Shown one piece after another: positions 20,292 to 54,968 of a DNA stretch of 64,000 nucleotides. A program made the position numbers and the translations under genes. Position 1 is the first letter of the stretch; each line of letters opens with the position of its first letter. The notes beneath the pieces were generated by a model. That model searched no databases. It was given only the letters and a program-made list of their open reading frames with translations, and had not been told where the DNA came from. Origin of the DNA: Diphasiastrum complanatum (lineage: Eukaryota > Streptophyta > Lycopodiopsida > Lycopodiales > Lycopodiaceae); contig CM055102.1 of NCBI GenBank assembly GCA_029204225.1, positions 23,345,390 through 23,409,389 on the forward strand, given 5' to 3'.

Positions 20292-20327
<36 letters not shown>

Positions 20328-20336
20328 TATATATAT
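20292..20336. repeat. (AT)n microsatellite
   Basis: AT dinucleotides with one AAAT interruption. Confidence 0.9.
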
Positions 20337-21960: not shown

Positions 21961-22203
21961 TTCACACATATTATTAAAATATTAAACTCTAAGTAAATAC
22001 CTATAACCTTAAGAACTATAACAAACCTTGAAACTCTTTTTGTGTTAATGTCATTGTTTATCTTCGCTTTGTTCACATATACACATACACGTGTCGTGTG
22101 TTTTGCTCACACAAATACACCCACACATTGCACTTTACTCATTCACACACATACACACATATATGCTCTTACTCTTTCTTTCTCTCTTAGGTTTTTTAAT
22201 GGA

Positions 22204-22546: not shown

Positions 22547-23788
22547 CTAACTTGGCAAGTCTAATGTACATCTATCTACAAATCCAAGAGCATCTCTTAA
22601 CTTGAAAAATGGATCTTTAGCCAAAGGTTTGGTTAAGATATCAGCTATGCACTCAGATGATGGCACATGATGAAGTTGAACCTCCTTGCATTGCACGTTC
22701 TCCCTCACAAAGTGATGAGCTATCTCAATATGCTTTGTTCTAGCATGAAAGATCGGATTGGTAGCAATTTGTTGAGAAGCTTGATTGTCACAATAGATGC
22801 AAGGGATCTCCTTGGCCTTTAGCACTTGAAGCTCCACCAAAAGTCTTCTTAGCCATAGGAGTTCTTTGGTTGTTGAAGTCAATGCCTTGTACTCAGCTTC
22901 ACAAGAGGAAAGAGAAATTGTATCTTGCTTTTTGAAAAGCCAAGATATCACTCCTCCACAAAGAAAAGTGACAAATGAACTTATGGATCTTCTATCCATC
23001 TTGTCTCCTACAAAATCTGAATCCGAAAATGCCCTCAAGTACAAGTTAGATCCTTGATAGAGAATGCCAAAAAATCTAGTAGAAGAGACATATTTAAGCA
23101 CTCTCTTGGCACTTTTCCAATGATGCATCAAAGGACCTTGCATATATTGACTTAACTTGCTTACACTATAACTCAAATCCGGTCTGGTGATTGCCAAATA
23201 GATTAAGGAGCCTATTAGCTTCCTAAAGAGTGTGATGTCCTCAAAGGATGCTTCATCACAATCATTAGTAACTTGCTCCATAGGGGTGTCAATCCCCTTA
23301 CAATATTTCATGCCAAACCTTTCAAGAATGGAAGTAGCATACTTTGACTGACTTATAAAAGTAAAATCACTACCTCTAGTAGCTTCTATTCCAAGTATGA
23401 ACTTAAGAAGTCCTAGATCTACCATCTTGAATTCACTAGACAAAGAAGCTTTAACATTTCTTATGCCTTCACCATCATTTCCTATCAATATGATATCATC
23501 AACATAAAGTACTAAAATGATGATCTTTCCATCATTACATTTGATGTACAAATAAGGCCCATAAGAGCTAATCACAAAGCCAAGAGAGTAGAGAAAATCA
23601 TGCAACCTAGAGTACCAAGCTCTAGGCGCTTGCTTCAAGCCATATAGGCTCTTCCTTAAGTGGCAAACCTTGTCCTCCTCACCATCCTTGATGAAGCCCT
23701 CGGGTTGCAACATGTATATTTCTTCCTCTAAGTAGCCATTCAAGAAAGCATTGGTCACATCCATTTGATAGAGATTCCACTTGAACAA
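22547..23788 (-). CDS. Ty1/copia reverse transcriptase and RNase H (element 1)
   Basis: A 413-residue open frame. RT motifs in order: MDVTNAFLNGYLEEEIYM, SLYGLKQAPRAWY, and the catalytic LYVDDIILIG near residue 95. Copia RNase H follows with SDSDFVGD, SSCEAEYKAL and YCDNQASQQI, ending with the HVPSSECIADILTKPL tail. The frame is uninterrupted, but the N-terminal RT part lies in other frames (23789-24300), so the polyprotein as a whole is broken. It copies RNA into cDNA in virus-like particles when the element is intact. Confidence 0.9.
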   Translation of the reverse strand: MFKWNLYQMDVTNAFLNGYLEEEIYMLQPEGFIKDGEEDKVCHLRKSLYGLKQAPRAWYSRLHDFLYSLGFVISSYGPYLYIKCNDGKIIILVLYVDDIILIGNDGEGIRNVKASLSSEFKMVDLGLLKFILGIEATRGSDFTFISQSKYATSILERFGMKYCKGIDTPMEQVTNDCDEASFEDITLFRKLIGSLIYLAITRPDLSYSVSKLSQYMQGPLMHHWKSAKRVLKYVSSTRFFGILYQGSNLYLRAFSDSDFVGDKMDRRSISSFVTFLCGGVISWLFKKQDTISLSSCEAEYKALTSTTKELLWLRRLLVELQVLKAKEIPCIYCDNQASQQIATNPIFHARTKHIEIAHHFVRENVQCKEVQLHHVPSSECIADILTKPLAKDPFFKLRDALGFVDRCTLDLPS

Positions 23789-24991
23789 AGTAGCAATACA
23801 AATGATCGATCTAATAGTTACAAGCTTTGCTACAGAGCAAATGTTTCTTCATAATCTATGCCTTTAGTTTGAAGAAATCTCTTAGCAGCCAATCTAGCTT
23901 TGTACTTACTTATAGATCCATCTTGATTGTACTTTAATTTATAGATCCACTTACATGCAAGTGGTTCTTCCCATACGGAAGGTGTACAAGATTCCAAGTT
24001 TGATTATCTATCAAAGCATCAAACTCTACTTGCATTGCATCTCTCCAAATTTGTGATCTATTTGCATCTTCATAACATGATGGCTCTTCAAGCATTGTCG
24101 TTACAAAAGAATAAGAGGCAGAAGGAGTTGTGTCTTCCCTTTGCTTCCCTTTCTCAAAGTATGTGAGCCTTGAAGGCTCGGCCTTGCTCCTTGTGGATCT
24201 TCCCAGCTCCTTTGGAGCTTGATTTTGATCTTCCAAAAGATCATTTTCAAGAGGCTCCTCCTTGGGTGTTGCAAGATCTTCATCACCTAAAAGATTAGAT
24301 GCATTTGGAGACAGCTTCTAACTTTGAGATTCATCAAATAAGACATCTTTGCTAGCTTTTACTTTGCTTGAAATAGGATCAAATATCCTGTATCCTTTGC
24401 TATTTTCACTATAGCCTACAAATATTCCTTTGAAGGAAGTTGCATCTTCTTGGAATGTGGACATAACATATACATCCAAACACTAAAATCTTTTACATTG
24501 GGCTTATTGCCAAACAAAGCTTGAAATGGTGAATCCCACCAATAGCACTACTAGGATGCCTATTACATAAGTAATTAGCACAAGTTATGGCCTCCCCCTA
24601 AAAAGATATGGGTAGAGATGCATCAAGTCTTAAAGACTTTGCACACACAAAGGCTCCTATTTTTCCTCTCGGCCACCCCATTTTGTTGGGGGGTGTAGGG
24701 ACAAGTGAGCTCTCTCTTAATGCCATTGATCTCACAAAAGTCTCTCATCTTGTTGGAGATATACTCTCCTCCATTATCACATCTTAGAACTTTAATGCAA
24801 GAACTAAGTTGCTTTTCCACTAGAGACTTAAACTTTACAAAATCTTCATATACAAGGCTTTTCTTAGGCAATAATTTAATCCAAGTGTATCTAGTACAAT
24901 CATCTATAAAAGTCACATACATTAAAGCACTTCCATTACTTTCATGAGAAAAAGCATGAACATTCGAATGGATAATATCATGTAGATGCAA
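23789..24991 (-). pseudogene. Copia element 1 integrase and RT N-terminus, broken
   Basis: The integrase core is visible at 24623-24991: HSNVHAFSHESNGSALM, then CDNGGEYISNK with the second Asp, and YTPQQNGVAERKNRSL with the catalytic Glu. Further 3', 23934-24236 reads the linker and RT start (ANRSQIWRDAMQVEFDALID). Several stops and frame changes separate the pieces. The zinc-binding N-terminus of integrase and the protease are absent: the gag frame runs straight into the integrase core at about 24980. Confidence 0.8.
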
Positions 24992-25873
24992 CCATCAAGG
25001 ATGTGTTGAAGCCATCCTCTTCCTCCTCCCCTTGTGCAATATTGCCTTGATCTTCACTCCCTTGTGCATTCTTCTTCTTATAAGATTCGGAAGCAAAGTG
25101 TCTTTTTTTCCCACAAAAGAAACACTTTAGCTTGGCTTTGTTCTTTTGCTTCCCTTTGGAGGTAGATCCTCCATCCTTTGCCTCGGCCTCCTTGCCTTGG
25201 ATCTTCTTGAAAGGATGAGTCTTCTTTTTGCCTTTAGATGTGAAGTTTGCTTTCTCATCACCATTATGTAGTGACAAGGACCCCATTCTTGTTTTGAGGT
25301 GTAGAAGCCTACTCTCCTCGGCCACAAGAACATTATGCAATTTATCAATTGATGGAAGTTGGTCTTGAATAGCAAAAGATTGAACTAGATTAGAGAACTC
25401 ATCTCCTAATCCATTCAAAATTACTTGTATTAGTTCATTGTCTTGGATCGTCTCTCCTATAGATCTTAATTCTTTGTTCAAAGATTTTATCCTTAGGACA
25501 TATTCTTGTCCATTTTTTCCACTTCCCTTCATGCTTTGCAAGATCAAGTTTCTTAGCATAAGCACTCTTGAAATGTTATTGGACTCATAAATGCTCTTTA
25601 GTGAATCCCAAGTTTGATGAGGTACAAGAAGCCACATCCTTCAAGAGGTCATTGCTTGCATTCAACTTTAAGCAATGTAGGGCTAGTCTAACCGTCTTCC
25701 TGTATTTTAGCTATTCTTGGGTAGCTTGAGGCTCTTCCTCAACTCCTAAAACAATATCAAAGAGGTCATGAACCACAAGAAGTGATTCCATCCTCACTTT
25801 CCAAATGGAATAGTTTGTGGAAGTTAGTTTCTCACTAGATTATAACAAATATCCACCCATGGATGACATTGTG
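24978..25873 (-). pseudogene. Copia element 1 gag
   Basis: Gag-type text starts near 25873 (SIWKVRMESLLV), is interrupted by stops near 25700, and continues as a 219-residue frame (25637-24978) with MLRNLILQSMKGSGKNGQEY. The zinc knuckle CFFCGKKRHFASES follows. The last Cys of the CCHC knuckle is Ser here. It ends abruptly at an internal deletion that removed the protease. Confidence 0.8.
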
Positions 25874-31003: not shown

Positions 31004-32121
31004 TCGAGATGTGATGGAAGGCGTCGACTCTAGAACAAGGAGGAGTCCATATTTGAGTGTTCATGCATGGTTGGGATCTTTGTGAATCTCTGTGTCTGAT
31101 TTTTAAAGCTTGGTGAAAAATTCTTGACATAGGTTGTTATCAAATTATTACAAATCCATTCCAAATCTCAAGAGTGAGATTCTTTGGGGATTCCAAAAGG
31201 GGTGATTGGATATTAATGTTAGTGTTTGAATCAAATGTACATGTCAAATTGAGTGATCTAGTGTAGATCCTATGTTTTGTAAAAATTGGTGGTATAGTAT
31301 GTTGTCAAATCAAATCAAATTCATTCTAAATCTCAAGAGTGAGATTATTTAAGTCAAGAGTGAGTCCAAAAGAAGTGATTAAGTTTGATTTTCATGTATT
31401 TGAAACAAAACCCATCTTTTGTTCAAGAATCTCAAGTGTTGAGAAAACTAGTCACGTGAAAAGAAAAATCTAGGTGTCAAATCTTTTCATATCCATTTTA
31501 AGTCTCAAAAGAAAGAGTCATTGGTATTTGTTGAGTCCAATAGGAGTTTGGATCTGATTTCTTTTATGTTTTGATCCAAAGATTGTGTGCTTTTGTCTTA
31601 GTGATCAAAGTAAAATTTCCAAGTGACTAGTCATTAGTGTGAAGATTGATTCTTAGGTTTGTGAGTTAGATCTTTTGTAGATCCTTCTAGATTATTGAAT
31701 ATGTTCAAATCTAGTCTCTTGAGAGTCACAAATTACATTTGTAGAATCATATCACAAGTTTTGTTTCACATGGCATCAATAGGTGGCATCCTATTGAAGG
31801 CAAGTAAGGATCTTAAGTGCAACCTTTGAGGCAAGGAAGGATATTTCTCCTCAAGATGCTACAAACCAATCCATCCAAGGAGAACCAAAGCAAGGGGGCC
31901 GAGGTGAAGGATGGAGCTTCAAGTTCAAAATGCAAATACATCACAATGCATGTCAAAAATTTTGAAATTTTTTATTTGGAAGTGCATTGTTTGGTTCAAG
32001 ATGCAAAGGTAGATGTCACTTTCATGAAAGTAGCTTGGATTTATTTCCCTGAGTGCCCGGGACCTAACACCTGTGGTTAAAGTAAGTCTATTTTGATCTA
32101 ATCGTAGTTAGAGTAACATAT
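31004..32121. other. Intergenic, weak direct repeats
   Basis: No gene. Phrases such as TTCCAAATCTCAAGAGTGAGATT recur (about 31155 and 31323), along with similar 'AAATCAAATC' text. The ORF at 31817-32080 shows no domain. Confidence 0.4.
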
Positions 32122-32128
32122 ATGATTT

Positions 32129-32425
32129 ATGAAATACCGCCAACATTTATTACATATTTGGTTTTTTATTTTCATACTGATTCAACTACATTTTGTTTTA
32201 GACTCTGTTGTTCATCTTCTTTTAGCCTTGCAATGGCTTCCGGAAGCCGTAGACCACGAAGCAATATTGTCTCATTTTCTGTTTGTAATGAAAAAGACTC
32301 TGATGGCTCTTGGATACCACGTATCTATAGAAAATTTCACTGGGTTCTCATGCATCCCTCATCAAGAGGTGTTTTTGGTAAAAAGAGAAAATCAAATATG
32401 GATTATAGGAATTTTTGAAAAGGTA
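32129..32425 (+). CDS. Possible 5' exon of an unidentified gene
   Basis: Two overlapping frames are open here. The one ending GFSCIPHQEVFLVKRENQIW then IIGIFEK meets a GT (about 32421) and looks more protein-like. The other starts MASGSRRPRSN at 32233. Which is real cannot be settled. Placed here because the next exon of the same strand begins at 32650. Confidence 0.3.
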
Positions 32426-32649
32426 GAATTTTAGACTTCAAAGTTTCACTCGGTGGTCGATCCATTTCAGAGGTCTTGATTCAACATGTCTACATGCATA
32501 AGGAAATTAGAGTGGAAGGCGTAAGTTCAAATGATAGACTCAAATGCAATTGTAAGTTTTGGAGAATTTTTTGGTTTGAGCTTTGCATTAATCATTTAGA
32601 CGTGTATCTGAGTATTTAAATGACATATAGTTATATGGATTTGTGCAGA

Positions 32650-32887
32650 TTTGTATCCATCAAGCAGAATCGAATGGCAACCTCTACAATCCCTTGTCGA
32701 CATCATGGACGTTATTCATTCTGATATTGGTTGTCTGCAATACAAGAACCGCTCCACGAGATCACTTTTGGATTCTTGTATTTTCTTCTATGATTCATTT
32801 TACACACCATCCAGTTTAGGTGGAAAATTAGAGGCGATATCATTATCCTCTTTCTCAAGCGAAGAATGGATTCCTCCAGATTCCAAA
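32650..32887 (+). pseudogene. Unidentified gene, exon interrupted by copia element 2
   Basis: After a TTTGTGCAG acceptor the frame reads YPSSRIEWQPLQSLVDIMDV and LLDSCIFFYDSFYTPSSLGG, ending EEWIPPDSK exactly where the copia LTR begins. Coding resumes beyond the element at 38872. I recognise no domain. Joining the two sides directly does not restore one frame, so either an intron border has been lost or the copy was already decayed. Confidence 0.5.
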
Positions 32888-33578
32888 TGTGAAAAGTACA
32901 GTACTAAGGACCATAAATGGATCTTTGAATGATCCACAAGGTGATTGTATGCTTGTTAAACAATCTATCAGAAACTAGTCATCAGAAAACAAGATCTAGT
33001 TTAGCAGCTTGATAGGAAACAAGTAGAGACAATCAAAGCATTGATCAATTAGTATAATCCAACTCCACACGTGTGGAAATAAGGCTGTAGTACGGCCTGT
33101 AGACAGTGTTTACAAATTGCCAAATTTGGGTTTCATTGGAAATCAAGAGTAATCACCATACAATGAGAGGAAACTCGAGTTTCTCCTTGAGGCTCCAAAA
33201 AGTTTCTATCTTCTCAATATGGAGAATGAGAATACATAGTAAAACACACTTCCTTTGCTAAGTTAGGTGAAAATCCAGCATGTAATAAGGAATTAGACTC
33301 CACTTTCTTGCCCTAATGTGAAAACCCTAGCCTAGATCCAAGAGTCATGCTTGGTAGGTGCATGGTAGGTACAAATCTCATCATAAATCATGGTCTAGAT
33401 CCTACAAAGTAGGAATCACTACCAAATGGACACAACCCCTCCTCTTGACTCGTGGTAACCTACTTTAGGTGTGTATGTACAAGTGGCACTTTGGCCATTC
33501 AAGTAACCAGCAAACAATATTGACAAAATGTACAATATTCTACATGGCTAGATTTGCCAATGTAGGCAATTTTTCACA
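32888..33578 (-). repeat. Copia element 2, 3' LTR
   Basis: 691 bp. Contains the perfect palindrome CCACACGTGTGG at 33065-33076. Confidence 0.95.
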
Positions 33579-33653
33579 CTCCTCCTCAAATCTAGCCTTG
33601 GAGATCACAATGCTTTTATCAATAACTCCAATTGAAAATCTAAGCTTGACAAA

Positions 33654-35528
33654 TTAATCTTTAGGTACAGTTTTAGTAAACAAATCAGCCAAGCAACTTG
33701 ATGATGGCACGTGTTGGAGCTTGATCTCTTTAGCTTGCACTTTTTCCCTCACGAAATGATGAGCAATTTCGATGTGTTTGCTCCTTGCATGGAATGTAGG
33801 ATTAGTTGCAAGTGATTGGGCTGATTGGTTGTCACAATAGATGATAGGGATCTCCTCCTCCATGACATGAAGCTCCACCAATAGCCTTTTGAGCCACAAG
33901 ACCTCCTTGCATGTTGATGTCAAGGCCTTGTATTCGAATTATGTGGAAGATAGGGAGATGGTATCTTACTTTTTGGAAAGCCATGATACTACTCCATCAC
34001 ATAGAAAGGTGGCAAAGGCACTTGTTGATCTTCTATCCACTTTGTCACCTGCAAAATCCGAGTCACTATAGGCTCTTAGGCCAAGATTAGTTCCTCTATA
34101 CAAAATGCCAAAATTCTTAGTGGATGAAATGTATCTAAGAACTCTTTTGGCCATCTTCCAATGTGAAACTAGAGGACTTTGCATGAATTGGCTTAGCTTT
34201 CCAACACTATAACTAAGATAAGTTCTAGTTATAGTTAAATAGATCAAGGAGCCAATAAGCCTTCTATATAATGTGATGTCCTCAAATGATGCTTCATCAC
34301 AACCAATAGATGCTTTTACATGTTGCTCCACTGGTGTCTCAATGCCTTTACAATTCTTCATTCCAAATCTATCTAGGATGGATGTAGCATATTTAGATTG
34401 ACAAATGAAGCTAAAATCACATCCTGTAATAACCTCTATTCCAAGAATGAAGCTCAATAGGCCGAGATCTACCATCTTAAACTCTTTTGCTAAAAGAATT
34501 TTTACATCTCTAATTCCATCTAGATCAATACCACTCAAAATAATGTCATCTACATACAAAACAAGAATAATGATCATGCCATCATGAAAACTTATATACA
34601 ATGATGGATCATAGGCACTCATTACAAAATTGATAGAAATGAGAAAAGAGTTTAGCCTAGAGTACCATGCTCTAGGTGCTTGCTTGAGCCCATAAAGGCT
34701 CTTCTTCAAAAAACACACCTTTCCATCATGCTTTGCCTTGATGAAGCCCTCGGGTTGCTTCATGTAGATCTCTTCCTCCAAATAACCATTGAGGAATGCA
34801 TTTGTGAAGTCAAGTTGTAATAGCTCCCAATTGAAAGTTGTAGCAAGACTAATGATCAACCTGATAGTAACAAGCTTAGCCATAGGAGCAAAAGTCTCAT
34901 CATAATCAATGCCTTCGGTTTGTAAAAAACCTTTGGCAACAAGCCTAGCTTTATGCTTGCTTATTGATCCATCTTGATTATACTTCAATCTATATACCCA
35001 CTTGCAATCAAGAGGTCTCTTCCCTTGAGGAAGATCCACAAGATCCCAAGTATGATTCTCAATAAGAGCATCATACTCTACTTGCATAGCATCCATCCAA
35101 CTTTTAGACTTACAAGCATCTTCATAGCATGTTGGCTCATCTAACATTGAAGTAAGAAAGGTGTAAGATGTGAAAGATGATGAGCCTTCTCTTTGATCAC
35201 CTTGACCATCATAGGTGAGCCTCAATGGCTCGGATCTTGCCCTTGTAGATCTTCTTGGAGTTCTTGGAGTTCTTGCATCTTGAGGTGGATTCTCAAGTTC
35301 TTCTTCACTTGGAAGCTCCTCCTCCATCCTAGCATGATCCTTGGCATCAAGATGATTAGTAGCATTATCATCCAAATCACAAGCATGTCCTTCATAAAAA
35401 ATAACATCCCTACTCACTATCACCTTGCTAGTGATGGGATTGAAGACTCTATAACCTTTGCTATTCTCACCATATCCCACAAAGATGCCTTTGATGGATG
35501 TTGCATCATCCTTCCTTCTCTTATCCAA
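33654..35528 (-). pseudogene. Copia element 2 RT and RNase H
   Basis: A 520-residue frame (35528-33966). It has the integrase-RT linker, then LLQLDFTNAFLNGYLEEEI, SLYGLKQAPRAWY, the catalytic LYVDDIILSG, and RNase H SDSDFAGDKVDRRS. A break follows near 33960, and the RNase H tail continues at 33923-33654 (YCDNQSAQSLATNP, HVPSSSCLADLFTK). All RT active-site residues are present. Closely related to element 1. Confidence 0.9.
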
Positions 35529-36486
35529 GGATTGATGTACATAGCAAGTGGGTCCAAAAACTTTGAGATCCTTGAGATTGGGCTTCTCTCCAAATAGAGC
35601 TTCAAATGTTGTGATTCCTCCAATGGCTTGGTTGGCAATCTATTGCACAAATAGTTAGCACAAGTTATTGCTTCACCCCAAAATAATTTGGATAGAGAAG
35701 CATCTAGTATTAAGGCCTTAACACACTCACAAAGAGATCTATTTCTTCTCTCACTCACTCCATGTTGTTGAGGGGTGTATGGACATGACAACTCTCTCTT
35801 TATGCCATTAGAACTACAAAAGTCAATCAACTTATTGGAGATATATTCACCTCCATTATCACTTCTTAATACCTTAATCTTGGTACTAAGTTGATTTTCT
35901 ACCAAAGTCTTGAACTTTACAAAAGAATCAAACACCATTGATTTGCAAGACAAGAGGTACATCCAACAAAATCTAGAATAGTCATCAATGAAGATTAACC
36001 ACCATTAGACTCATGTGAAAAACTATGAACATCCGAATGGATGAGTTCAAGAGGAGAGTTTGATCTTGATGTAGATCTTGAGAAGGGTAGTTTGTGAGTC
36101 TTTGAGAGGCTGCATGCTTCACGTCTCTTCCCACACTTTGACAAATGCTTGGGGAGTCCAACTGCAAGCTCCTTTGCAACCATAGATTCCATGGCTTTGT
36201 AGTTGGGGTGGCCCAACCTTTTGTGCCACAGTTCCACCTTTGATAACTCCACCTTTGCCAAGTTAACACTCTCCACTGCAACATTAGCATCAAGCTTAAA
36301 CAATCTACTTTGCTTAAAGCCTTTGGCTATACATTCATCATTTCTAAGGATGGAACAAACTCCATGCTTAAATTGTACATCTAGGCCATTATCCATTAAC
36401 TGGCCAACACTAAGCAAATTCTTGGTTAACTTAGGAACATAAAGAACATTATCAAGATTTATCCTTTTGGATGATCCCACATACAA
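35420..36486 (-). pseudogene. Copia element 2 integrase
   Basis: The pre-integrase zinc region includes LWHKRLGHPNYKAMESMV; later Cys positions are displaced by frame changes. The core reads IHSDVHSFSHESNG, RSDNGGEYISNK and YTPQQHGVSERRNRSL, supplying the D, D and E positions. A frame break at about 35990 separates the first Asp from the rest. Confidence 0.85.
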
Positions 36487-36543
36487 GGGAATTGTTCCTA
36501 TTCCACTTATCTTACATTCTTGACTACTTGAGGAATAGATTGA

Positions 36544-37548
36544 TCAACGTAAATCATTGTAAGAAAGTAAGGTGGAGAGTATGTCCTTTTGATATGTCAT
36601 GTGGGAACTTGCCCCACTATCAATCCACCAAGAATCATTGGTGTTGCTCTTGGATGATGGTGGTTTGTTGGAAACTATCAAGGATGACTCTTCATCCTCC
36701 TCCTCCTCCTGATGTGCAATGTTGCTTTGTTTGCTCTCTTGTGCCTTCTTCTTCTTGAGACATTCTGATGCAAAATGTCCTTTCTTTCCACAGAAAAAAA
36801 CATTTGTACTTGGACTTGTCTTTGATCTTGCCCTTTGAGCTTGTAGCCTCCTCCTCCTCCTTGGTCTCCTTGAAGTGCTTATTCTTGCCACTGGTCTTCT
36901 TCTTGCTTTTGAATGAGAAATTAGCTTTCTCATCACCATCCTGCAGAGAAATAGCATTCATTCTTGCATTAGTATGCAACATCCTACACTCTTCAGCTAC
37001 TAATACACTGTGTAGCTTTTCTATAGTAGGCAAAGTGTCTTGGATTGCAAAGATTTGGACCAAATTTGTAAAGCCACTCCCTAGACCATTGAGGACAATC
37101 TGAACAAGCTCACTATCTTGAATCTTCTCTCTAATGGAAGCTAACTCTCTATTGAGAGACTTGATTCTTAGCACATAATTTTGTGCAATCTTATCACTCC
37201 TCTTCATGCTTTGTAGAATCTGATTCCTAAGCATGAGAACCCTCGAAGTGTTACTAGACTCATAGATAGATTTTAAAGATTCCCAAGTCTCTTTAGCACT
37301 CTTACATGATGATACTTCCTTAAAAGGTCATTGCTTACATTCATCTTAATACAATGAAGTGCAAGCCTAGACCTCTTCTTGTATCTCACTAATTCCTGTG
37401 CACCTAGAGGTTCATCTTCATCATCTATTAGAAACTCATAAATATCTTGGAGCACCATTAGTGACTCCATCCTCACTTTCCAAATAGCATAATTGGTAGA
37501 ATTTAACCTCTCACTAGCTTCTAGAAGGTAGGCTCCCACTGATCCCAT
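36544..37548 (-). pseudogene. Copia element 2 gag and protease
   Basis: Gag starts MGSVGAYLLEASERLNSTNY at 37548. After frame changes it continues with MLRNQILQSMKRSDKIAQNY. The zinc knuckle CGKKGHFASEC is present, followed by the aspartic protease start WWIDSGASSHMT with the catalytic Asp. At least two frameshifts are needed to read it through. Confidence 0.85.
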
Positions 37549-38167
37549 CTTACTAGCAAGATTCTACACACAAGATATAGATTTGTTTGGACCTGAAACT
37601 CACAAAGGTTTATAACTTGCAGTGTTTCACTCAAATGTTGACTTCTAATCCAATAGATGGATTTTTAATCACAGTTCTATCACTCCCTCACAAAGCTGGA
37701 ATGAAGATAAGATGAGATGAAAACTACTCTCAAGCAAATCTTGCCAATCTTGGCTATTTTTGGACAAAAACTAACTCTATCTCTCTCATTCACTTTGATG
37801 TACTTTCAAGATCTGGTTTCCACTTTAAGAAGGTCTGAAATCAGCCTAGATTAGTTAGTTTTCATGAAACAAATTCAAAACTAATCAATGGCAAGTGATC
37901 TTGGTAGCTTATCCTAGGATTTGCACCAAAAATTACATCAAACTGACACCAGATGAATTTTCTATGATCCAATGAATATGGGTTATTAAATGTTGGTTCA
38001 AAGATGCCCACACGTGTGAACAGTACAGATTTTGATCCTGAAAAAGTTTGGGATCAAATCCCCTCACCAAAACTTGGATACTAGCTTGCCCTTCCAATAC
38101 TAGCTTTTTGCACCAAAACCTGCTAAAACTGGATTAGATTCAAACACAGATGAATGGCCTTGTACTT

Positions 38168-38180
38168 GGCTCCGATACCA
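38168..38180 (-). promoter_or_regulatory. Copia element 2 primer binding site
   Basis: The minus strand reads TGGTATCGGAGCC directly after the 5' LTR. Confidence 0.85.
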
Positions 38181-38871
38181 TGTGAAAAGTACAGTACTAA
38201 GGACCATATATGGATCTTTGAATGATCCACGAGGTGATTGTATGCTTGTTAAACAATCTATCATAAACTAGTCATCAGAAAACAAGATCTAGTTTAGCAG
38301 CTTGATAGGAAACAAGTAGAGACAATCAAAGCATTGATCAATTAGTATAATCCAACTCCACACGTGTGGAAATAAGGCTGTAGTACGGCCTGTAGACAGT
38401 GTTTACAAAGTGCCAAAGCTGGGTTTCATTGGAAATCAAGAGTAATCACCATACAATGAGAGGAAACTCGAGTTTCTCCTTGAGGCTCCAAAAAGTTTCT
38501 ATCTTCTCATTATGGAGAATGGGAATACATAGTAAAACACACTTCCTTTGCTAAGTGAGGTGAAAATCCAGCATGTAATAAGGAAGTAGACTCCACTTTC
38601 TTGCCCTAATGTGAAAACCCTAGCCTAGATCCAAGAGTCATGCTTGGTAGGTGCATGGTAGGTACAAATCTCATCATAAATCATGGTCTAGATCCTACAA
38701 AGTAGGAATCACTACCAAATGGACACAATCACTCCTCTTGACTCGTGGTAACCTACTTTAGGTGTGTATGTACAAGAGGCACTTTGGCCATTCAAGTAAC
38801 CAGCAAACAATATTGACAAAATGTACAATATTCTACATGGCTAGATTTGCCAATGTAGGCAATTTTTCACA
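38181..38871 (-). repeat. Copia element 2, 5' LTR
   Basis: 691 bp. The same CCACACGTGTGG palindrome lies at 38358-38369. Confidence 0.95.
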
Positions 38872-39632
38872 CACCATAGCAGAGAGCTTCCGATCAAGGT
38901 TTTTTATGGACACTCAAAACTATATGAAATGTAGCACAGGTTCAAAAAACAATAGATTGCACTGGTTTTTGCCTTTTGCAATATTTGTAGATTTTTTTGT
39001 CGAATGTAATATTCGTAGAACAGTGACAATGTTTATTTGTAGTGATTTAACAGACAATATGTTATCAAGCCTCCTTGATGATCATTGGGATAAAAAGAGT
39101 AATGGCAATATCGAGTGCATAGTTAATAGATCGTCAATGAAACTTAGATATCTTATAGAAAAACAAGTGCTTTCTTTAACATTTTATTATAGAAGATGGT
39201 TCAAAGTTGGCAATGGATGGAAAGCATTGGATCAGAATTTTACAGTGAATCATCAAGATCAAATAGAAATCCAAGTGAGGCAAAATAATTCTACTGGTAC
39301 AACAATTGAGGTGGAAGAAGATTGGACACTCGATCACATTCGATCAGAGCTTACCTTGTTGCAATATGATATTCCTAAACACTTCTATTTTCGAGTCAAC
39401 AAGAGATTGGTAGGTGTATGTGTATTTATTTCAATACACATTTGAAATGACTTTCAATGATTTTATTTAAACATGTTTCAGTGTTTTTGGTATTGCAATA
39501 TTTCATTTAAAATAATCTCAATGTTGATATTGTTTAACAAGTTTCTTTGATGTACAGGTAAGACCAAGACAAGAAAGTCGCATACAGTGCAAGGACTTAA
39601 ATAGAAGCGTAGAAATTGTTGAAACCGCATAA
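38872..39632 (+). pseudogene. Unidentified gene, 3' exons
   Basis: The exon to 39409 reads RLHWFLPFAIFVDFFVECN, SSMKLRYLIEKQVLSLTFYY and DWTLDHIRSELTLLQYDIPK. A GT at 39410 and a TACAG acceptor give a last exon at 39558-39632 (VRPRQESRIQCKDLNRS), ending in TAA. The splice keeps frame (NKRL|VRPRQE), which supports a real gene structure. The end has the feel of a C-terminal domain with pattern W-x-L-x-x-I-R...FxVNxRxVxxRQE, but I cannot name the family. Upstream coding is severed by copia element 2. Confidence 0.55.
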
Positions 39633-39883
39633 ACGTTGGGATGATAGACGAGCAACAACAATGTACTTTAAAAAAAAAAAAATACAAAGAAGTCTCAAAT
39701 GACTTCAAGATTTCATCGAACAATTTGTATTTAGTATTTTGAAAAATGTACATTGTTTTTAAAATCGATATAATATATTTGTGGCATTCAGTAATAGCCA
39801 ACTTTCTATTTGCCTATCTGTTGTTCTATGCATCATCATGTGATGATATATTTCTGTGTCTGTTGGAACTTATGTGACAATAT

Positions 39884-40310
39884 TTACATTTCAATCAAAG
39901 GTGCCTGAGGCATATCCTCGAGCACTGCAACTTCATCCACAGATCCCCTGGCAAGTTCATCTGAGACACCTTCATGCTTGTAGGGCCTTGCACACGATAG
40001 TAAAATTTCCAACATTTTATGCCGATACTGATGAATCACATTTGTTGATACCTCAGGACATTGGAACTGCAAGATAAAATATTGAGTATGTATGTATTAG
40101 CCAATGTTTTAAAAAATATAAATTTACAAAGTTAACAATATATCATTAGGATACTAGAACTTGAAAAAAATACCTCACGGATACTAGCATCTGGAGGTTG
40201 CACCATACACCAATCCAAGAACAATTTAACATTCCAGATTGAATACCATCCGTAGCTAAAAGCATTGTCTTGTTGCAAAGACTGATTTGCATACGACTTG
40301 CTTTCGTGGT
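39884..40310 (-). pseudogene. Ulp1-like protease C-terminal box, inverted piece
   Basis: Two exons are inferred: about 40310-40174 and 40066-39884 (donor GTATTT, acceptor TTGCAG, frame kept across IRE|FQCPEV). The first reads LQQDNAFSYGWYSIWNVKLF, which fits the Ulp1/C48 box PQQxNxxDCGxY. The Gln pair, Asn, Gly and Tyr remain, but Asp is Ser and the catalytic Cys is Tyr, so it cannot be an active protease. The second exon has QYRHKMLEILL and ends in an acidic tail (SVDEVAVLEDMPQ). It points away from the protease N-terminal half at 41.1-41.9 kb, with the repeat array between, suggesting an inversion of one gene or a second copy. Confidence 0.5.
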
Positions 40311-40550
40311 ATCGCCATCACGCGAGCGACCTCGTCTCTAGGCCTGTTCCTTACACCCTCTCGTGTCGTAGCGATATCAGCCTGACTCTCTTAGTATCGC
40401 CATCACGCGAGCCCCTTCCTCTCCCCGCTTGACTTTGCTACTCTCTCGCGTCGTAGCGATATCACTCTCAGAGTTCCTGGTGTCGCCATCACGCGAGATA
40501 ATCTAGCTTTTTCTTCTGCACTATCTCTGTCCTCGCGTGGTATAGATATC
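40310..40550. repeat. Array of alternating inverted CGCG/GATATC motifs
   Basis: Direct copies of TATCGCCATCACGCGAG lie at 40310-40326, 40395-40411 and 40481-40497 (TGTCGCC... in the third). Inverted partners of the type CTCGCGTCGTAGCGATATC lie at 40360-40378, 40445-40463 and 40532-40550. The period is 85-87 bp, so there are three units, each able to form a stem of 17-19 bases (13 of 17 positions matched in the first unit) around a loop of about 33 nt. The array ends 8 nt before the ATG of the H3-like frame at 40559. Confidence 0.85.
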
Positions 40551-40558
40551 CGGCCTCA

Positions 40559-41910
40559 ATGGCTCGGACGAATTAGCAAACCGCTAGGCTTACCAGCTTT
40601 GTTCAATTGTCTCGTCCCCAGACTTCTGAACCTGTTCGTCCACAAAGATGTGGAAGACCTCGCCGTCCATGGTTGAGGGACATCAGGGCATTGTAGAGGA
40701 GCACCAAACTTCTGATCCCAAAAGCAGCCTTCTACCGGGCTGTCAGGGAGGTTACACAAGATATGACCACTCATCTGCCCTATGCAATGAGGTGGAATAG
40801 CACTGCATTGGAGGCACTCATACTGCATACGAGGACTTCCAGACAAAATTGTTTGAGGATTCGATGTTGTGCTCCATTCCTGGCAAGAGGGTGACACTGA
40901 TGCCCAAGGACATGCTTCTTGTCATGAGGCTTTGAAACACCTATGACAGCATTTTTAACTCTGGCTTCACATAGAGGCAAGTTCCTCTTGAAAGGGGGCC
41001 TGTCCCACCCCGAAAAAAGAGAAAGCAAGCATAGCCCAAGCGTTCACAACCCAAGCCCAGGTCTCCCAGCTCTTCACCCTCACCTCCTCCCATTAGAAAA
41101 GATCTGGATAGTACATCCGCAATTCCATTGGTTGAGAGTTCTCCCCTAACCCTTGATCTTCAACTGCAAGATTCTCCTTCTATACATGTGGATGACCTAA
41201 ATACAGTGGTGGACATGATTGTTTCTGATGTTGATGCAACTGATAAAGAGTTGCACATCAGACTTCCCAATGAACCTAAAGACACATTTTTTGATTCTGA
41301 GAGGTACATTGATTTTGACATGTATATAGCCAAGAAAATAGATGATCTCGGAGGAGAGTTTATGTTTTGTATAGACGATATTAATTTTGCAATGCATATC
41401 AAAGACCCACATTGTAGGGAGCTAAAAGAGAAGACCTCCTATATCTCAGACATAGTTATTGAATCCGCTTGTGCATATTATGTACATAAATACACATATA
41501 CAGTCATGGAGCTTTTTGTTGTATCTCCATTTTTTGGGCATCTGTTGAATAAAGAGAGGAACGCCAGAAGGCTCTTTAGGCACACTAGAAAGGAGGCATC
41601 AATGTTCATCATCCCATACTGTTCAAAGTAATATAATTTCTTCTTGTAATATTTGTTTTCTGCTTTTTGGAAACTCTTATAGATTTTAGTAATTCATTGC
41701 TTGTCATTTTCTAGCAGCAAACATTGGAGTGTGCACGTCATATCCATGAAAGTGGATTCTACTGGAAGCTGCACACCTGTGTGCATGACAATGAATTCTT
41801 TGCATGCCACCCCTTCCATGGTTAAGTCCATGTACAAGAGGATGGGGGAGCTATTGCCCAGGCCGGATGGGCTGATTGTAAATACCAACATAGAGATTGT
41901 TGATGCAAAG
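40559..41910 (+). pseudogene. Histone H3-like (CENH3-type)/Ulp1-protease fusion gene, decayed
   Basis: ATG at 40559. Tail MARTN-stop-QTARLTS resembles H3 MARTKQTARKS. The H3 fold reads CGRPRRPWLRDIRAL, RSTKLLIPKAAFYRAVREVT, MRWNSTALEAL (Trp as in plant CENH3), AYEDFQTKLFEDSMLCSIPG and KRVTLMPKDMLL. One missing base (40817-40830) shifts the frame. From there a single frame continues through PPRKKRKQA-stop-PKRSQPKP (NLS-like) and a Ser/Pro-rich linker into 41128-41627, with KTSYISDIVIESACAYYVHK, a C48-like entry. A GT-AG intron (41628-41714) precedes KHWSVHVIS (catalytic His) and CMTMNSL (Asp replaced by Asn). Five in-frame stops (TAG at 40574, 40694, 40972, 41032; TGA at 40933) make it a pseudogene. 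The stop after MRL could instead be an ancestral end of a separate histone. Confidence 0.7.
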
Positions 41911-41984
41911 GTAAAAAGAATCTTTTTACGTATTTTATTTGCATGATGGCATGGAGTTTAGAATTATATTGAATTATAATTCTG

Positions 41985-42390
41985 GAAAAAAGTTGCCACG
42001 TATGAATACTTGTGACACGTGGCCCAATCAGTAACTGACGTGTGGAACCACATGTCTATATACGCACGTGTGAAACTGCACATCTGGATCAACATATGTG
42101 GAATCCCACATGTGGACACCTGGCCGAATGGATCAGCGACATGTATTCTTGCATGTATAAGCTTGCACGTTTGGGCACATGGCCCAATCAGTACCTGACG
42201 TGTGGAACTACACGTCTGTATCCGCACGTACGAGCAACACATGTGGGACTTGCACGTGTGGCCACGTGGTCGAATGGTTGGTGACGTGTGTTCTAGCACG
42301 TATTAGCTCGCACGTGTGGGCATGTGGCCGAATGGCAGATTGACGTGTATTATAGCACGTGTGGTCTCGCACGTGTGGACGGTTATATTA
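41985..42390. repeat. ACGTG-rich tandem repeat, period about 160 bp
   Basis: GGCCCAATCAGTAMCTGACG at 42021 recurs at 42181, and both continue TGTGGAACYACAYGTCTRTA. A third, weaker unit follows. The block holds more than ten ACGTG cores, many as CACGTGTGG. It begins about 75 bp after the second protease exon. Confidence 0.8.
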
Positions 42391-42462
42391 CGTGTCATAG
42401 ATCTGATTCATTGTTGGATCGACGCGTGTACGGCTTGGATTTTATTGGTGTTAGCTATATAA

Positions 42463-42473
42463 ATGTTGTTTGA
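42463..42473 (+). promoter_or_regulatory. Candidate TATA box
   Basis: CTATATAAATG, lying 75 bp downstream of the ACGTG-rich block and 80 bp upstream of a motif array at 42553. This layout looks like a promoter, G-box cluster then TATA. Confidence 0.45.
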
Positions 42474-42552
42474 TCAGTTAAAACCTTTCGCTAAGTTTTG
42501 GATTTCTACTCCCTGCAGCTCTTGATGTGTCAATGCTACTAGTTCTTTGCAA

Positions 42553-42703
42553 TATCGCTACCATGCGAGAATCTATTTCAGATTCTAGACGATCTTGGAT
42601 CCCTCATGTCGTTCCGATATCGGGTCATTCACAAATATCGCCATCACGCAAGGACTGCCTAATTGTCTTCTAACTCCCTGCCACCCCGCGTTGTAGTGAT
42701 ACT
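42553..42703. repeat. Second CGCG/GATATC inverted-motif array
   Basis: Direct motifs TATCGCTACCATGCGAG (42553-42569) and TATCGCCATCACGCAAG (42636-42652); inverted motifs at 42603-42621 and 42685-42703. The period is 82-83 bp, so there are two units of the same family and orientation as at 40310-40550. Confidence 0.8.
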
Positions 42704-42866
42704 CAACCCTACTGGTCATACTTTCAAGATGGTCATCTCATCTTTTGATACTTTTGATTATGCGTTGCACGCCTTCCTCGTTGAATCCGGTGTTGGTAAC
42801 CACATAGGTAACTATAAGACGTATTTCAATATGTCTTTTGATATTGAGAGGTTTGATTCAGAGTAG
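42663..42866 (+). other. Short ORF after the second array
   Basis: 67 residues (FDYALHAFLVESGVGNHIGN). No domain recognised. It lies where the H3-like frames sit relative to the other arrays, but I see no convincing H3 similarity. Confidence 0.25.
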
Positions 42867-44935: not shown

Positions 44936-44988
44936 GGGTGCCCACATCAGAGCGATGGAGGCATCCACCATCCCTGGCCGCTAGCCAC

Positions 44989-45127
<139 letters not shown>

Positions 45128-45298
45128 TATGCATGTTTTTTTAACGTTGAACGTAGGTAGTAGGTAGTGTGACACAAGGGTACATAGATAGTCTCTCTCT
45201 AAAATGTTTTTAACTATATAGACTGGCAAAGTGTGCCTGTCGATGACGGGTGAAAGATGGTGTGTGTGTGTGTGTGTGCACGCGTGGGGGGCGTGTGT

Positions 45299-47232
<1,934 letters not shown>

Positions 47233-48679: not shown

Positions 48680-49512
48680 GGCAAAGATCAAGGAACTCAT
48701 GCAGGATCTACAATCATCAATCTTGATATTGTTCAAGAAGTGGTGAGGCCAAGTCTTGAGGAAGAGCAAATTCAAGCACCTACACCAAGAAGATCCACAA
48801 GAGAAAGGTCCGAGCCAAGAAGGCTCACTTATGATGAGGAAGGAAGGCAAGTGGAAGGTGAAACTTCCTACCATGCATTTTTCATATCAGATGAAGAGCC
48901 TAAAGATGTCCAAGAAGCACTTCAATCCAAGAGATGGGTTGAAGCAATGACCCTTGAGTTTGAAGCCTTGATGTCAAACAACACATGGGAGCTTGTGGAG
49001 CCACCAAACAACATGCATGTCATTGGATGTAAGTGGGTATTCAAGATCAAGCACAACAATGATGGATCCATCAACAAATTCAAAGCAAGACTTTGTGCCA
49101 AAGGCTACTCTCAAATCAAAGGTCTTGACTATGAAGATACTTTTGCACCTGTTGCAAAAATGGTAACTATAAGAATTCTCATTTCTCTTGCATGTTATCA
49201 CAATTGGAGGATGTTTCAGCTTGATGTTTCTAATGCAACTAAACATGCACTTGGTAGTGAATTTAAGATGCAAGATCTAGGAGTTCTTCACTACATTTTA
49301 GGCCTAGAAATTGACTTTTGGAAAGATCATGCTTTCATAAGTCAAAGTAGATATGCACTTTCCATGCTTAAGAAATTCCAAATGGAAAACTGTAAAGTCA
49401 TAGATACACCAATGGAGCACATTCTAAAAGTTCTTATAAAAGATGATGAAAGATCCTTCGAGGACATCACTATTTATAGGAGTCTTATTGGCTCACTTAT
49501 ATGGTTAATATG
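48680..49512 (+). pseudogene. Copia element 3 RT, internally deleted
   Basis: Linker text (EEEQIQAPTPRRSTRERSEP) is followed by RT start EAMTLEFEALMSNNTWELVE and DVSNATKHALGSEFKMQDLG. Between DVSNA and HALGSEFKM the FLNG to YVDD segment is missing, so the catalytic site is deleted. The frame ends at an inversion junction near 49505. Confidence 0.8.
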
Positions 49513-51298
49513 TGAGCCTACTTGGCTCAGATCTTGCTCGTGTAAATCTTCTTGGTGTGGTAGCTTGAATTTGCTCCTCCTCAAGCCTTGGCCTCACCTC
49601 TTCTTGAATAGCATCAAGATTGATGATTGATCTTGCATGAGACTCATTGACCTGTGCATCATCCAAGTTAAACTTCTGATCTTCATGGAAGATCACATCT
49701 CTACTAACAACATTCTTGTTAGTAGAGGGTAAATAAATTTTGTATGCCTTTTTGGTAGATGCATATCCTACAAAAATTCCTCTTACAACACTAGGATCTT
49801 CCTTCTTTCTGGTTTCTAGAGGTACATGCACAAAGCATACACAGCCAAAAATCCTAAGATGATCTACCTAAGGCTTTTTCTTATACAACATCTCAAATGG
49901 TGTCTTTCCTCCTATTGCAAGATTTGAAAACCTATTACAAAGATAGTTTGCACATGCAACTGCCTCTCCCCAAAATTCTTTAGACAGAGAAGCTTCTAGC
50001 CTAATGGCTTTTGCACATTCACACAAAGTTCTATTTTTTCTCTTAGCAACTCCATTTTGCTGAGGAGTATATGAACAAGAAAACTCTTTTTGAATACCCT
50101 CTCTCTCACAAAAGTCTTTAAACTTATTGGAAGTGTATTCTCCTCCACTATCGCTTCTCAAAGCTTTCAACTTGAAAGGAAACTACTTTTCTAGATAAGC
50201 TTTGAAATTAAGGAAAACATCATAAACCATGGCTTTTGAAGACAACATATAGATCCAATAATATCTTGTATAATCATCTACAAAAGAGACAAAGCAGTTG
50301 GCTCCTCCTTTGCTCTTAGTTGATGAGAAATGAACATCAGAGTGTACAAGTTCAAATGGTTGCTTTGTCTTGATACTTGATCTAGGAAAAGGCCTTCTGT
50401 GTGACTTTGCCAGCACACAAGCTTCACAAGGTAGAAGCTCCTTTGACAGTGTCTTTGGTAGACCAACAACTTTTCCTTATTTGACCATATATTGCATGGC
50501 TTTGAAATTGGGATGACCCAATCTCTTGTGCCACAGATCCTCCTGTAGAACCTTGGTCTCATAAGCAATATCTGAAATGTTAGCGCTCTCCCTAGAATCT
50601 AGTTTGTACAACTTACCAATTCTAGATCCTCTAGCAATAACTTCATTTTCTCTTGAGATTATACACTTGTCAACTTGAAACTTGACATCCAATCCACTAT
50701 CAAACAACTGTCCTACACTAATGAGATTCTTGGTTAATCTAGGTACATACAATACATCATGTAAGCAAAAAGATTTTGATGATGATACATGCAATGGAAT
50801 ACTACCTACTCCTTCAATTCTACACTCTACATCATTAGCAGTATAGATTGATCTTTTTGCACCTAGATATGGCATGAGATTAGTGAAAGAGTTCCTAGAA
50901 CTAGACTTATGGGAACTAGCCCCACTATCTATCCACCAGACTTCTTCATTCTTAAAATGAAAAGATGAAAAAGTAGACATCATTAATGAATCCTCTCTTT
51001 CACTCTCTACACCCTCACACTCATCCTCATTAGTAAGGTTAGCTTGCTTAGATTGGTTCTTCTTCTTGAAACAGTTTGATGCATAGTGTCCTTTCTTGCC
51101 ACGAAAAAAACACTTGATCTTTGACGACTTATTCTTGCCACTGGATGTTGCAGCTTGTGAGGACTGATCCTCACCACCTTCTTTGGCTTTGTCCTTCTTG
51201 AAGTGTTGTTGTCCTTTGCCCTTGCCTCTTGACTTGAAAGTGTGGGACAGTTAAAAGTTCTTGAGTAGATTCAAATTTGAATGTTGGGTACATTGAAT
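49505..51298 (-). pseudogene. Copia element 3 gag-protease-integrase part, opposite strand
   Basis: On the minus strand: zinc knuckle CFFRGKKGHYASNC (second Cys replaced by Arg, about 51100), protease start WWIDSGASSHKSSS, LWHKRLGHPNFKAMQYM, integrase core HSDVHFSSTKSKGGA, RSDSGGEYTSNK and YTPQQNGVAKRKNRTL, then VRGIFVGYASTKKAYKIYLP and the linker again. Stops and frame changes break it. 51246-51298 matches LTR sequence found at 55315-55370. Confidence 0.85.
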
Positions 51299-52560: not shown

Positions 52561-53559
52561 AGAGGCTTGGGATAAAATTAAAATTATTGTTTTTTAATGG
52601 TCTTTTTTTTGTTTCAAATTTTACGATTTTTTTTTTATATATAGATTGTACGGTCTTTTTTTTCACTTTTTTTTTAGTGAGAATACTCACAAAAAAAAAA
52701 TAAATCGGAAAAGAACCTAGCCTCGCTGGTGAGTGACTCTATCTTTCAGATAGCCTCCTCCCACAACTACAACGGTTCCATTTCCTAAAAACTCTAAAAA
52801 TTGAAAAAAGAACCTAAGCCTCGCTGGTGACCGACTCTATCTTTCAGATAGTCTCCTCTCACAACTATGACGGTTCTATTCTCTTAAAAAAATAAAAAAT
52901 AAAAATTGAAAGAAAAACCTGAGCGTGGTGAGCCTTCTCTATCTTTTAGATAGTGTCATCCCATGACTTTGATGGTTCTATCCCCCCCCCCAAAAAAAAA
53001 AAAAAAAAAAAAAAAACTGTAAGAAGAAAAAAAATCATACCATTTATAAGGCACCACAGAGTTGGCTACAAACACCTGGCAGGATTCAACAATGAGATGA
53101 AGCAGGAATGAAGAAATGTGCTCCTTGCGCAAATCTCCTACCGCAAGGGATTGATTCAAAAGATGCGCTGCAGCTCTAATGAAGGGATCTTGGATGGCAT
53201 CCATGAGGTAGCAATCATGTATCCTTGTCTCTGTGAGATGAAACTTTAGGAGTCTTTGGGAGAGTTACTCAAAGTCTGTACAAGCAAAAAAAAAATCCAC
53301 AAAAATGGCAAAATCTCGAAAAAAAAAACAGCAAATCTGATACTAAACACACCTAAACTAACTTTAACAACTTAAAAACTTGATTTTTTGGGTGAAAAAG
53401 AGAGAGAAAGAAGAGAGAAGAGAGGAAAGAGAAGAAAGACGACTATGCGGCGAGACGAGTGTGTGGCGCTCCCCGGCAACGGCTCCACTATTGTGTCATC
53501 TTTGTAGCATAGGGTCCGAACACTGGGAGCGTCAACCCCACCTCTATTCGGTCGCTACT

Positions 53560-53560
<1 letters not shown>
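52561..53560. other. Intergenic, short tandem segment
   Basis: 'AGAACCTAxGCCTCGCTGGTGA..GACTCTATCTTTCAGATAG' occurs at about 52709 and 52812, with a third weak copy near 52916. A-rich runs lie at 52990-53020. No gene. Confidence 0.45.

Positions 53561-53561
<1 letters not shown>

Positions 53562-53613
<52 letters not shown>
53562..53613. repeat. (GA)n microsatellite
   Basis: First of three GA tracts separated by similar spacers (GGxTTxGGGAGxCTCGAGCxCCT near 53638 and 53823), showing a duplicated unit. Confidence 0.9.
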
Positions 53614-53617
<4 letters not shown>

Positions 53618-53686
53618 AAAAAAACCTTGGTTAAGAAAGGTTTGGGAGGCTCGAGCACCTTTTTCAAACTATTCGGTCCTAACCAA

Positions 53687-53807
<121 letters not shown>

Positions 53808-53868
53808 TCCTAGATTGAGAAAGGCTTTGGGAGCTCGAGCGCCTACCCAAAGCTATTATATCCCAACC

Positions 53869-53870
<2 letters not shown>

Positions 53871-53944
<74 letters not shown>
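53871..53944. repeat. (GA)n microsatellite, about 74 bp
   Basis: Third tract of the trio. Confidence 0.95.
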
Positions 53945-53947
<3 letters not shown>

Positions 53948-54968
53948 GAAAAAACCAAGATAGTTTTATTATGAAAAAGATGGAAGATGATATAATACAA
54001 AGGAAATGGCTCTCTCTTAGGTGAGCCTCCTTCACTCTTATTGGCCACTTCATTGGGACAAGGATTTTAATCCAAGCCTTTCAAATAATGGTGCTAAGAA
54101 ATGATTCATGTGAGTTCTAATTTGGGCCCTTTTAGTTTTTTTATTTGCAACTTGACTTAGGGCCTCTAATGTCATTTTAGAGTTTTAAGGCCCTAGTCTC
54201 TTATTCCTAGGAACTACAACTTGCTACTTGTGCTCATTGGTGGTTGGGCTTATACATGCAGGATGCCAAGTGTCTCGCACTTATTATTCTATTGTACACT
54301 GTACTATGACGGGGCCCACTAGGGAAGGCTTGGCCAATAGTATTTTAAGTGGTGGGACCCACGTGTTTATTATTGTGCAAGATTTTCTACTTTACTTGTT
54401 CTATCTCATGTTTGAGCATTTTCATGTGGATGTGTGCAAATTGTCAAGATATGGTAAAACTAGCTACATTGGTGAGCATCATTTTGATGTTGGATTTGTA
54501 CTAGAATTCTTGGCTGGTTTTGATGATGGAAATGAAGCTATTGGAGGTTCATTATATCACTCATCCATGATCAAGTTCTCAAGTGTTGAGGTACTTGATG
54601 CCAATGTTTGGAGATTGTCAATTTTTGGTAAATTCATGGTCATTTTCTTGTGTCAAGTAGATTTTGAAGATGGACTAGTAAAACTTGCTTGGTTTATGGA
54701 GTCATGTGGTGCTAGATTTGCATCATTTATGTACTCACTTACTCATTAATTTCCAAGGTTTGATGGTTTCTTGTGGCAAGATGGAAATGGAGGCTCATTC
54801 ATGGAGTTTCATGGTGAATACATGGCAACAAAGGACAAATAGGGAGGAAATATGCAAGCAAATGTTGATCACTCACATTTATTGTTTGTTTGCTATAGTT
54901 TTTCAGAGAGTTCAAAGTTGATAGCATGGAGGAATCATTTCATTTACATCCTATGTGATTCTTCATGT
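53945..54968. other. Copia-flanking non-coding sequence
   Basis: The 173-codon frame 54228-54749 has no recognisable domain. 54852-54960 shares text with 47010-46910 on the other strand, so this is element-derived. Confidence 0.35.

Follow-up and report, generated by a model that had tools for sequence, protein, structure and literature searches.

The question raised by positions 40559-41910 of a 64,000-nucleotide stretch of the Diphasiastrum complanatum genome (GenBank assembly GCA_029204225.1, contig CM055102.1, positions 23,345,390 to 23,409,389 of the forward strand; the whole stretch is referred to here as the window) is whether a histone H3 domain and a Ulp1-type (C48) protease were once parts of a single protein and, if so, what carried the gene and what the protein might have done. 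At these positions an H3-like frame meets a 1-nt frame break and is followed by a second stretch that closes in the motifs KHW and MNSL. A sequence-only reading had proposed an ancestral in-frame fusion, encoding a Ulp1-like protease targeted to chromatin, possibly borne by a transposon and not known from the literature. The copy at 40559-41910 belongs to a DNA transposon family of high copy number; it is broken and in part inverted, and it is from its better preserved relatives that the structure of the gene can be read.

The window copy and the intact four-exon gene

The H3-like frame, the single 1-nt frame break and five in-frame stops (40574, 40694, 40933, 40972 and 41032) are all present in the sequence, as had been described, the stops and the 1-nt deletion lying within exon 1 of the window copy. 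All five stops had been said to be one substitution away from sense codons; this is correct for four, which are C-to-T changes in codons for which the other copies mostly have CAG or CGA, but the stop at 40574 was made by a 3-nt insertion relative to other copies. On either side of the frame break, the 36-aa piece that follows it alone matches Pfam Histone at 3.2e-9, and the 45-aa piece that precedes it does so at 2.1e-4, under the cut-off; the two C48 pieces of the window copy gave no match in the Pfam scan.

The interval first described ends at 41910 with the exon-2 donor, and two more exons follow at 40281-40174 and 40066-39884 (Table 1). Their minus-strand position results from an inversion of the block 40287-41981 in the window copy, an arrangement that is also found on contigs C3909 and C4516 (99% identical). 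In exon 3 of the window copy the Cys of the C48-like region has become Tyr. The motif of the TATCGCCATCACGCGAG type that recurs directly upstream of the gene has four matches in the window, the fourth at 42636, with a chance mean of 0.00. The corresponding 85-bp repeat is present in 1.9 copies in another locus, L034; at 40310-40497 in the window it was not called by Tandem Repeats Finder.

Table 1. Parts of the fusion gene and of its transposon in the window (window coordinates)
Feature	Position	Strand	Basis or remark
Fusion gene, exon 1: N-tail and fold of the H3-like part, then the basic Pro/Ser linker and the first C48-like half	40559..41627	+	
H3-like domain, its frame interrupted near 40816-40825 where 1 nt is deleted	40559..40932	+	Pfam Histone 1.2e-20, joined segment with X at its two stops
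Linker with PPRKKRKQ-type basic stretch, right bound approximate	40933..41200	+	Stops at 40933 (TGA), 40972 and 41032 (both TAG)
Intron 1, GT-AG	41628..41717	+	Sequence; corresponding sites in L051
Exon 2, with the C48-like motifs KHW (His) and MNSL (Asn where Asp is expected)	41718..41910	+	
Exon 3: QQDNAFSYGW, on the opposite strand via the inversion	40174..40281	-	
Exon 4 and stop codon (FQCPEVSTN...PLIEM*)	39884..40066	-	
Block lying in opposite orientation to the remainder of the element	40287..41981	.	Likewise on contigs C3909 and C4516
Three TATCGCCATCACGCGAG-type motifs about 85 bp apart, directly upstream of the gene	40310..40497	+	
Upstream non-coding part of the element	41968..42862	-	Includes a 59-bp repeat, 2.2 copies (42252-42378)
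Exons 3-4 and the sequence that follows them, downstream in the element	38874..40285	-	
Further 3' part of the element, past the inserted Copia-type element	32045..32884	-	

Searches of the whole genome (1.74 Gb) revealed that the window copy has numerous relatives. With window positions 40540-41910 as a DNA query, the best 40 of 1093 candidates match near full length with identities of 91-100%; a protein query taken from a first exon that is intact gave at least 117 matches at no fewer than 114 loci (9280 candidates), with identities down to 72%, these counts being lower bounds in that only the best candidates were scored and including some loci that are near-identical duplicates. At least 78 of the 114 scored loci align over both the H3 and the C48 parts in one frame (query start at or before 50, query end at or after 320), many of them holding stops, and 54 of these 78 align from residue 1 or 2 to 357. 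The whole exon-1 query is stop-free at 10 of the 114, all of them among these 54. Stops were found at 24 positions over 27 distinct copies, 17 of them in CAG, CAA, CGA, CGG or TGG codons, i.e. those that C-to-T or G-to-A changes turn into stops, with the other seven outside these codons.

At one locus, L051, the gene is complete, its four exons being separated by GT-AG introns and adding up to 517 codons; it is the sole fully open row among the 32, near-duplicates included, that were aligned to its coordinates. Its exon 2 bears KHW and MNSL, and its exon 3 reads QQDDAFNCGW, which supplies the Gln and Cys that a C48 protease should have. The finding of paralogs with an intact fused frame, L051 among them, upholds the proposal of an ancestral fusion. 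As read from the sequence, the gene comprises four exons that encode a single predicted protein, in which a basic linker joins the H3-like histone domain to the C48-like region.

The H3-like and C48-like parts of the protein

The N-terminal part is, as judged by its sequence, certainly H3-like. In L051 it matches Pfam Histone at 2.6e-23, above the cut-off, which rules out chance similarity, and H3 chains in the PDB from 1.6e-22. It shares with H3 the histone fold and an ARTKQTAR-type start, and with plant CENH3 a Trp closing a lengthened loop 1 and the sequence SMLC..RVTLM. For L051, identity to the H3.1 and Arabidopsis CENH3 sequences is about equal (45/90 and 45/91, respectively), and the local scores are 207 and 201, H3.1 scoring slightly higher in three of the four copies compared. 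The part differs in having Leu at the position of Lys9, a loop 1 that is 4 residues longer than that of H3.1 and, in L051, about 390 residues of open frame following the histone fold, whereas H3 ends shortly past helix 3.

Lys4 is retained and Lys9 is replaced by Leu in all 27 aligned copies, a count for which the 3-nt insertion that splits the Lys4 codon of the window copy was set aside; the tail is consequently not a canonical one with both lysines. Among the positions at which H3 touches DNA or the second H3, R72, R83, H113, K115, R116, T118 and D123 are retained in 25-27 of the 27 copies, R69 in 19 and R63 in one. Because of the state of R69 and R63 and the four additional residues in loop 1, the H3 part may not enter the nucleosome.

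A genome search with a CENH3 query, in which the best 150 of 5403 candidates were considered, returned 13 matches at about 108 bits, which we take for canonical H3, and 137 non-canonical H3-like loci at 63-77 bits, of which 18 are in our list of fusion loci and 119 are outside it. A C48 match lies 0.5-0.6 kb downstream on the same strand at 18 of the 137 loci; 14 of these 18 are in the fusion list and in frame, the other four being out of frame. Several of the 119 H3-like loci outside the list stand in open frames of 330-527 aa.

The C-terminal part reads as a diverged C48-like domain with putative activity. It has the order of C48 motifs, i.e. His, Asn in place of Asp, Gln and Cys, and among the copies having each site the residue is present in 25/26 (His), 26/26 (Asn), 21/23 (Gln) and 18/23 (Cys); the spacing from Gln to Cys equals that of yeast Ulp1. 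Pfam C48 (PF02902) did not match the full 517-aa protein at E values up to 10 with the HMMER filters on, and a genome search with PF02902 (best 150 of 520 candidates) gave three matches, none at a locus of the fusion list. A PDB search with the C48 part returned one match, at E 0.33, which we take as chance. A home-made profile of 21 rows gave 8.6 bits (E 0.1) for a NEDP1-like protein of the host and 7.2 bits (E 0.26) for SENP8, which took the top two ranks among 2002 targets (2000 being shuffled sequences), the next shuffled one standing at E 0.76; the alignments of this profile to known proteases cover the Gln/Cys part and what follows it only. With hhalign, 205 columns were aligned at a probability of 49.6. 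In the light of the missing Pfam C48 match, the protease label rests on the motif order and the weak signal of the home-made profile. The C48-like region that had been proposed is thus supported by motif order and by that weak signal, but not by Pfam; a missing C48 profile match, named beforehand as counting against the proposal, did occur for Pfam, while the home-made profile retains its weak signal.

The transposon that carries the gene

The element has imperfect 30-bp inverted ends and a size of about 8-10 kb. When read inwards, the right end is ATTAGAGGAGTTTTGAGCACCAAAAGGGCC; it agrees at 24 of 30 bases with the left end, ATTAGAGGAGTTCCAAGGCCCAAAAGGGCT. Exact left ends number 81 in the genome and exact right ends 66, with none for the reversed-pattern controls. 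An exact facing right end lies 2.75-3.9 kb downstream of 20 of the 114 fusion loci (wrong-way control, two) and an exact left end upstream of 10 (wrong-way control, none). Two exact left/right pairs were found, one of 9,969 bp with a fusion match inside (C2) and one of 6,100 bp with a C48 match inside (C7), and a further copy, L038, measures 8,450 bp from end to end. An element of 308 bp whose inverted ends are almost identical to these was seen inside a Copia-type reading frame (L036:791-1098); when its borders were inspected by eye (target TAT/GAA), no target site duplication was seen.

Upstream of the fusion gene is a repeated exon, in or near which are the motifs KLDESEV, HLAGDLK...CLYC and QGMEKSH, and which presumably belongs to a DDE-type transposase; by motifs and linkage, we regard it as part of a putative transposase-like gene. 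A match to this exon lies within 12 kb of 27 of the 114 fusion loci, on the same strand in 26 and at 2.4-4.1 kb in 23, for a chance expectation of about 0.002 per locus; the other 87 loci have no such match among the 144 matches listed. Of these 144, an exact left end lies 1.6-2.2 kb upstream of 12 (wrong-way, one), and a facing right end is located 3.2-8.0 kb downstream of 12 (wrong-way, none). Among the 119 H3-like loci outside the fusion list, five have a transposase-exon match within 12 kb; in three of these cases the match shares the strand and lies about 3.6-3.7 kb away. The suggestion that the fusion was possibly transposon-borne agrees with the position of the gene, between inverted ends and downstream of the repeated transposase-like exon.

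The scanned exons, from three copies, match no Pfam transposase, MULE included, and no Pfam integrase or recombinase; their weak Pfam matches are to unrelated families at E 0.07-0.22, below the cut-off. An identity as MULE or CACTA was dropped on this ground. No close relative of exon 1 or of the transposase-like exon turned up in two scans of viral contigs. Further frames common to copies lie inside the transposon on the minus strand (L041:4282-3151 and L041:8411-7788), for which Pfam gave nothing above the cut-off.

In the window, the 3' part of the transposon is split by a Copia-type element, identified by eye, at 32885-38873, the transposon match stopping at 38874 and resuming at 32884. 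The insert has a 300-nt direct repeat of 98% identity (32887-33186 and 38180-38479), and it is the younger of the two, since it sits inside the transposon remnant. More Copia-type reading frames, likewise named by eye, occupy 22547-25640 and 48680-51250. Elsewhere in the window, 2 kb at 20001-22000 have 25% G+C and a strong skew of A over T, unlike the remainder, and long CT/GA microsatellites at 6517-6945, 10200-10565, 44981-45608 and 53488-54066 give (SL)n or (RE)n frames.

Constraint and possible roles of the fusion protein

Changes from the majority codon were counted over the 27 distinct copies. Singleton changes have an omega of 1.04, with stops arising at 1.03 of the neutral rate, and shared changes an omega of 0.49 (two or more copies) or 0.33 (four or more). 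For changes in four or more copies, omega is 0.31 in the H3 part, 0.44 in the linker, 0.33 in the C48 part and 0.27 in the tail (five changes); singletons differ from this class by Fisher's test overall (p 3e-7), in H3 (p 0.004) and in C48 (p 0.0003). In H3 the comparison of singletons with changes in two or more copies gives p 0.10, and the linker alone, with 10 replacement and 10 silent changes, p 0.12. Because recurrent deamination could mimic shared changes, the counts were repeated without C-to-T and G-to-A changes, giving omega values of 0.91 for singletons, 0.35 for two or more copies and 0.13 for four or more (9 replacement and 21 silent changes). Four stop positions are common to four or more copies, each of them requiring three to five changes on a tree that is star-like and has no support values, a pattern such as recurrent deamination would give. 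From the neutrality of singletons and the constraint on shared changes it follows that single copies decay freely, whereas the parent lineages kept the protein; the codon patterns show the predicted H3 and C48 parts to have been under selection while the transposon family spread.

These results bear on two other readings. A pack-type transduplication, in which the element merely captured an H3 pseudogene and a C48 fragment of the host without function, would fit the broken state of most scored copies and the neutrality of singleton changes, but is disfavoured by the constraint on shared changes in both parts, which is stronger when deamination-type changes are removed, and by the alignment of at least 78 of 114 loci over both parts, to 72% protein identity, many of them with stops; we consider it very improbable. 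We give equally little credence to a pair of genes, of which the H3-like one would stop near the TGA at 40933 and the C48-like part would be a gene of its own. Five of the 27 distinct copies do have TGA at this site, two of them being sisters, and the linker by itself lacks significant constraint; however, CGA, which is a CpG codon, stands there in 19 copies (CAA in two, CCA in one), the five TGA copies require four changes on the same star-like, unsupported tree, an indel is found in the linker of just one of the 27 copies and is 3 bp long, and the L051 frame is open across the site. Separate H3 and C48 genes were rejected on L051, the codon counts and the tree changes, and paralogs with an H3 frame ending at 40933, the outcome that would have told against a fusion, were not borne out.

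As to what the protein did, we tentatively favour the reading that the window holds a dead, rearranged copy of a transposon gene whose protein would counter silencing via its H3 part and its C48-like arm. The H3 part would enter nucleosomes, or H3-H4 dimers, at the element; it retains an H3K4-type tail, and its position 9, which could not be methylated, would bear no H3K9me mark. It would also bring the C48-like arm to chromatin, where the arm would take off, or simply bind, SUMO or a different ubiquitin-like tag, and the protein would in this way oppose silencing by the host. We infer chromatin entry, protease activity and anti-silencing as the most economical reading. The main rival, which we hold to be rather unlikely, is a selected fusion gene that serves the choice of integration sites or the assembly of the transposition complex, the H3 part docking the element on chromatin bearing H4 or its chaperones and the C48-like part editing SUMO on transposase or repair factors. 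Gene structure, linkage and constraint fit it equally well, and a role in transposition has been proposed for the Ulp1 domains of Ginger and Mutator elements (PMC2836005), but this rival offers no ready place for the Lys9 loss seen in the aligned copies. Less probable still is a transposon histone with a binding module, i.e. a C-terminal half that lost, or never had, C48 activity. The Asn found in place of the catalytic Asp in all 26 copies having the site, the missing Pfam match and the weak profile scores would suit such a module; the retention of His (25/26) and Cys (18/23), the Ulp1-like spacing of Gln and Cys and the top two ranks of the NEDP1-like protein and SENP8 among the 2002 targets speak against it.

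Compared with known systems, the element is not the first plant DNA transposon with a Ulp1/C48-type gene. Such genes occur in Kaonashi/KIU of Arabidopsis and in MULEs of melon, rice and grapevine (PMC13317346, PMC2528002). No H3 domain is described for the Ulp1-bearing MULEs in the passages compared, whereas this element carries an H3-like one; KIU are described as MULEs of the non-TIR type, in contrast to the inverted ends found here, and the scanned exons show no Pfam MULE transposase. Ginger1 and Crypton are likewise DNA transposons with a Ulp1-type domain (PMC2836005, PMC3212892), but in Ginger1 the domain lies inside the transposase, and the scanned exons here have no Pfam integrase or recombinase match. 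VANC, an Arabidopsis transposon protein, is reported to strip methylation from its own family, with targets that are often tandem repeats (PMC5735166), and some related elements are described as bearing Ulp1 domains with no assigned function (PMC13317346). The proposed function and the short tandem repeats in non-coding parts are what VANC of VANDAL and this element have in common; VANC binds short DNA motifs, whereas the fusion protein has a histone fold. The two are likened by proposed function, not by family, and the anti-silencing role is suggested by analogy. The statement that the fusion was not known from the literature held in our search of open-licence PMC papers, which, by the titles and abstract starts of the papers listed, found neither a transposon-borne H3 nor an H3-Ulp1 fusion.

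While Ulp1-type genes in transposons are already known, a transposon-borne histone was not found in the literature searched. A possible, though on balance unlikely, extension of the anti-silencing reading is that of a DNA transposon, perhaps of a superfamily outside Pfam, that would supply its own K9-less H3 with a deSUMOylase-like arm and so make its own chromatin resist silencing; if true, this would make the histone a transposon weapon, diversified into many non-canonical H3-like loci in one genome. On a practical level, surveys of plant genomes for CENH3 or for H3 variants may collect many transposon copies. If the H3 part does enter chromatin, the element would be a selfish one that alters the nucleosome itself, and it would provide a natural Lys9-less H3 with which to gauge the need for H3K9 methylation in plant transposon silencing, as well as a handle on the unsettled role of transposon Ulp1 domains.
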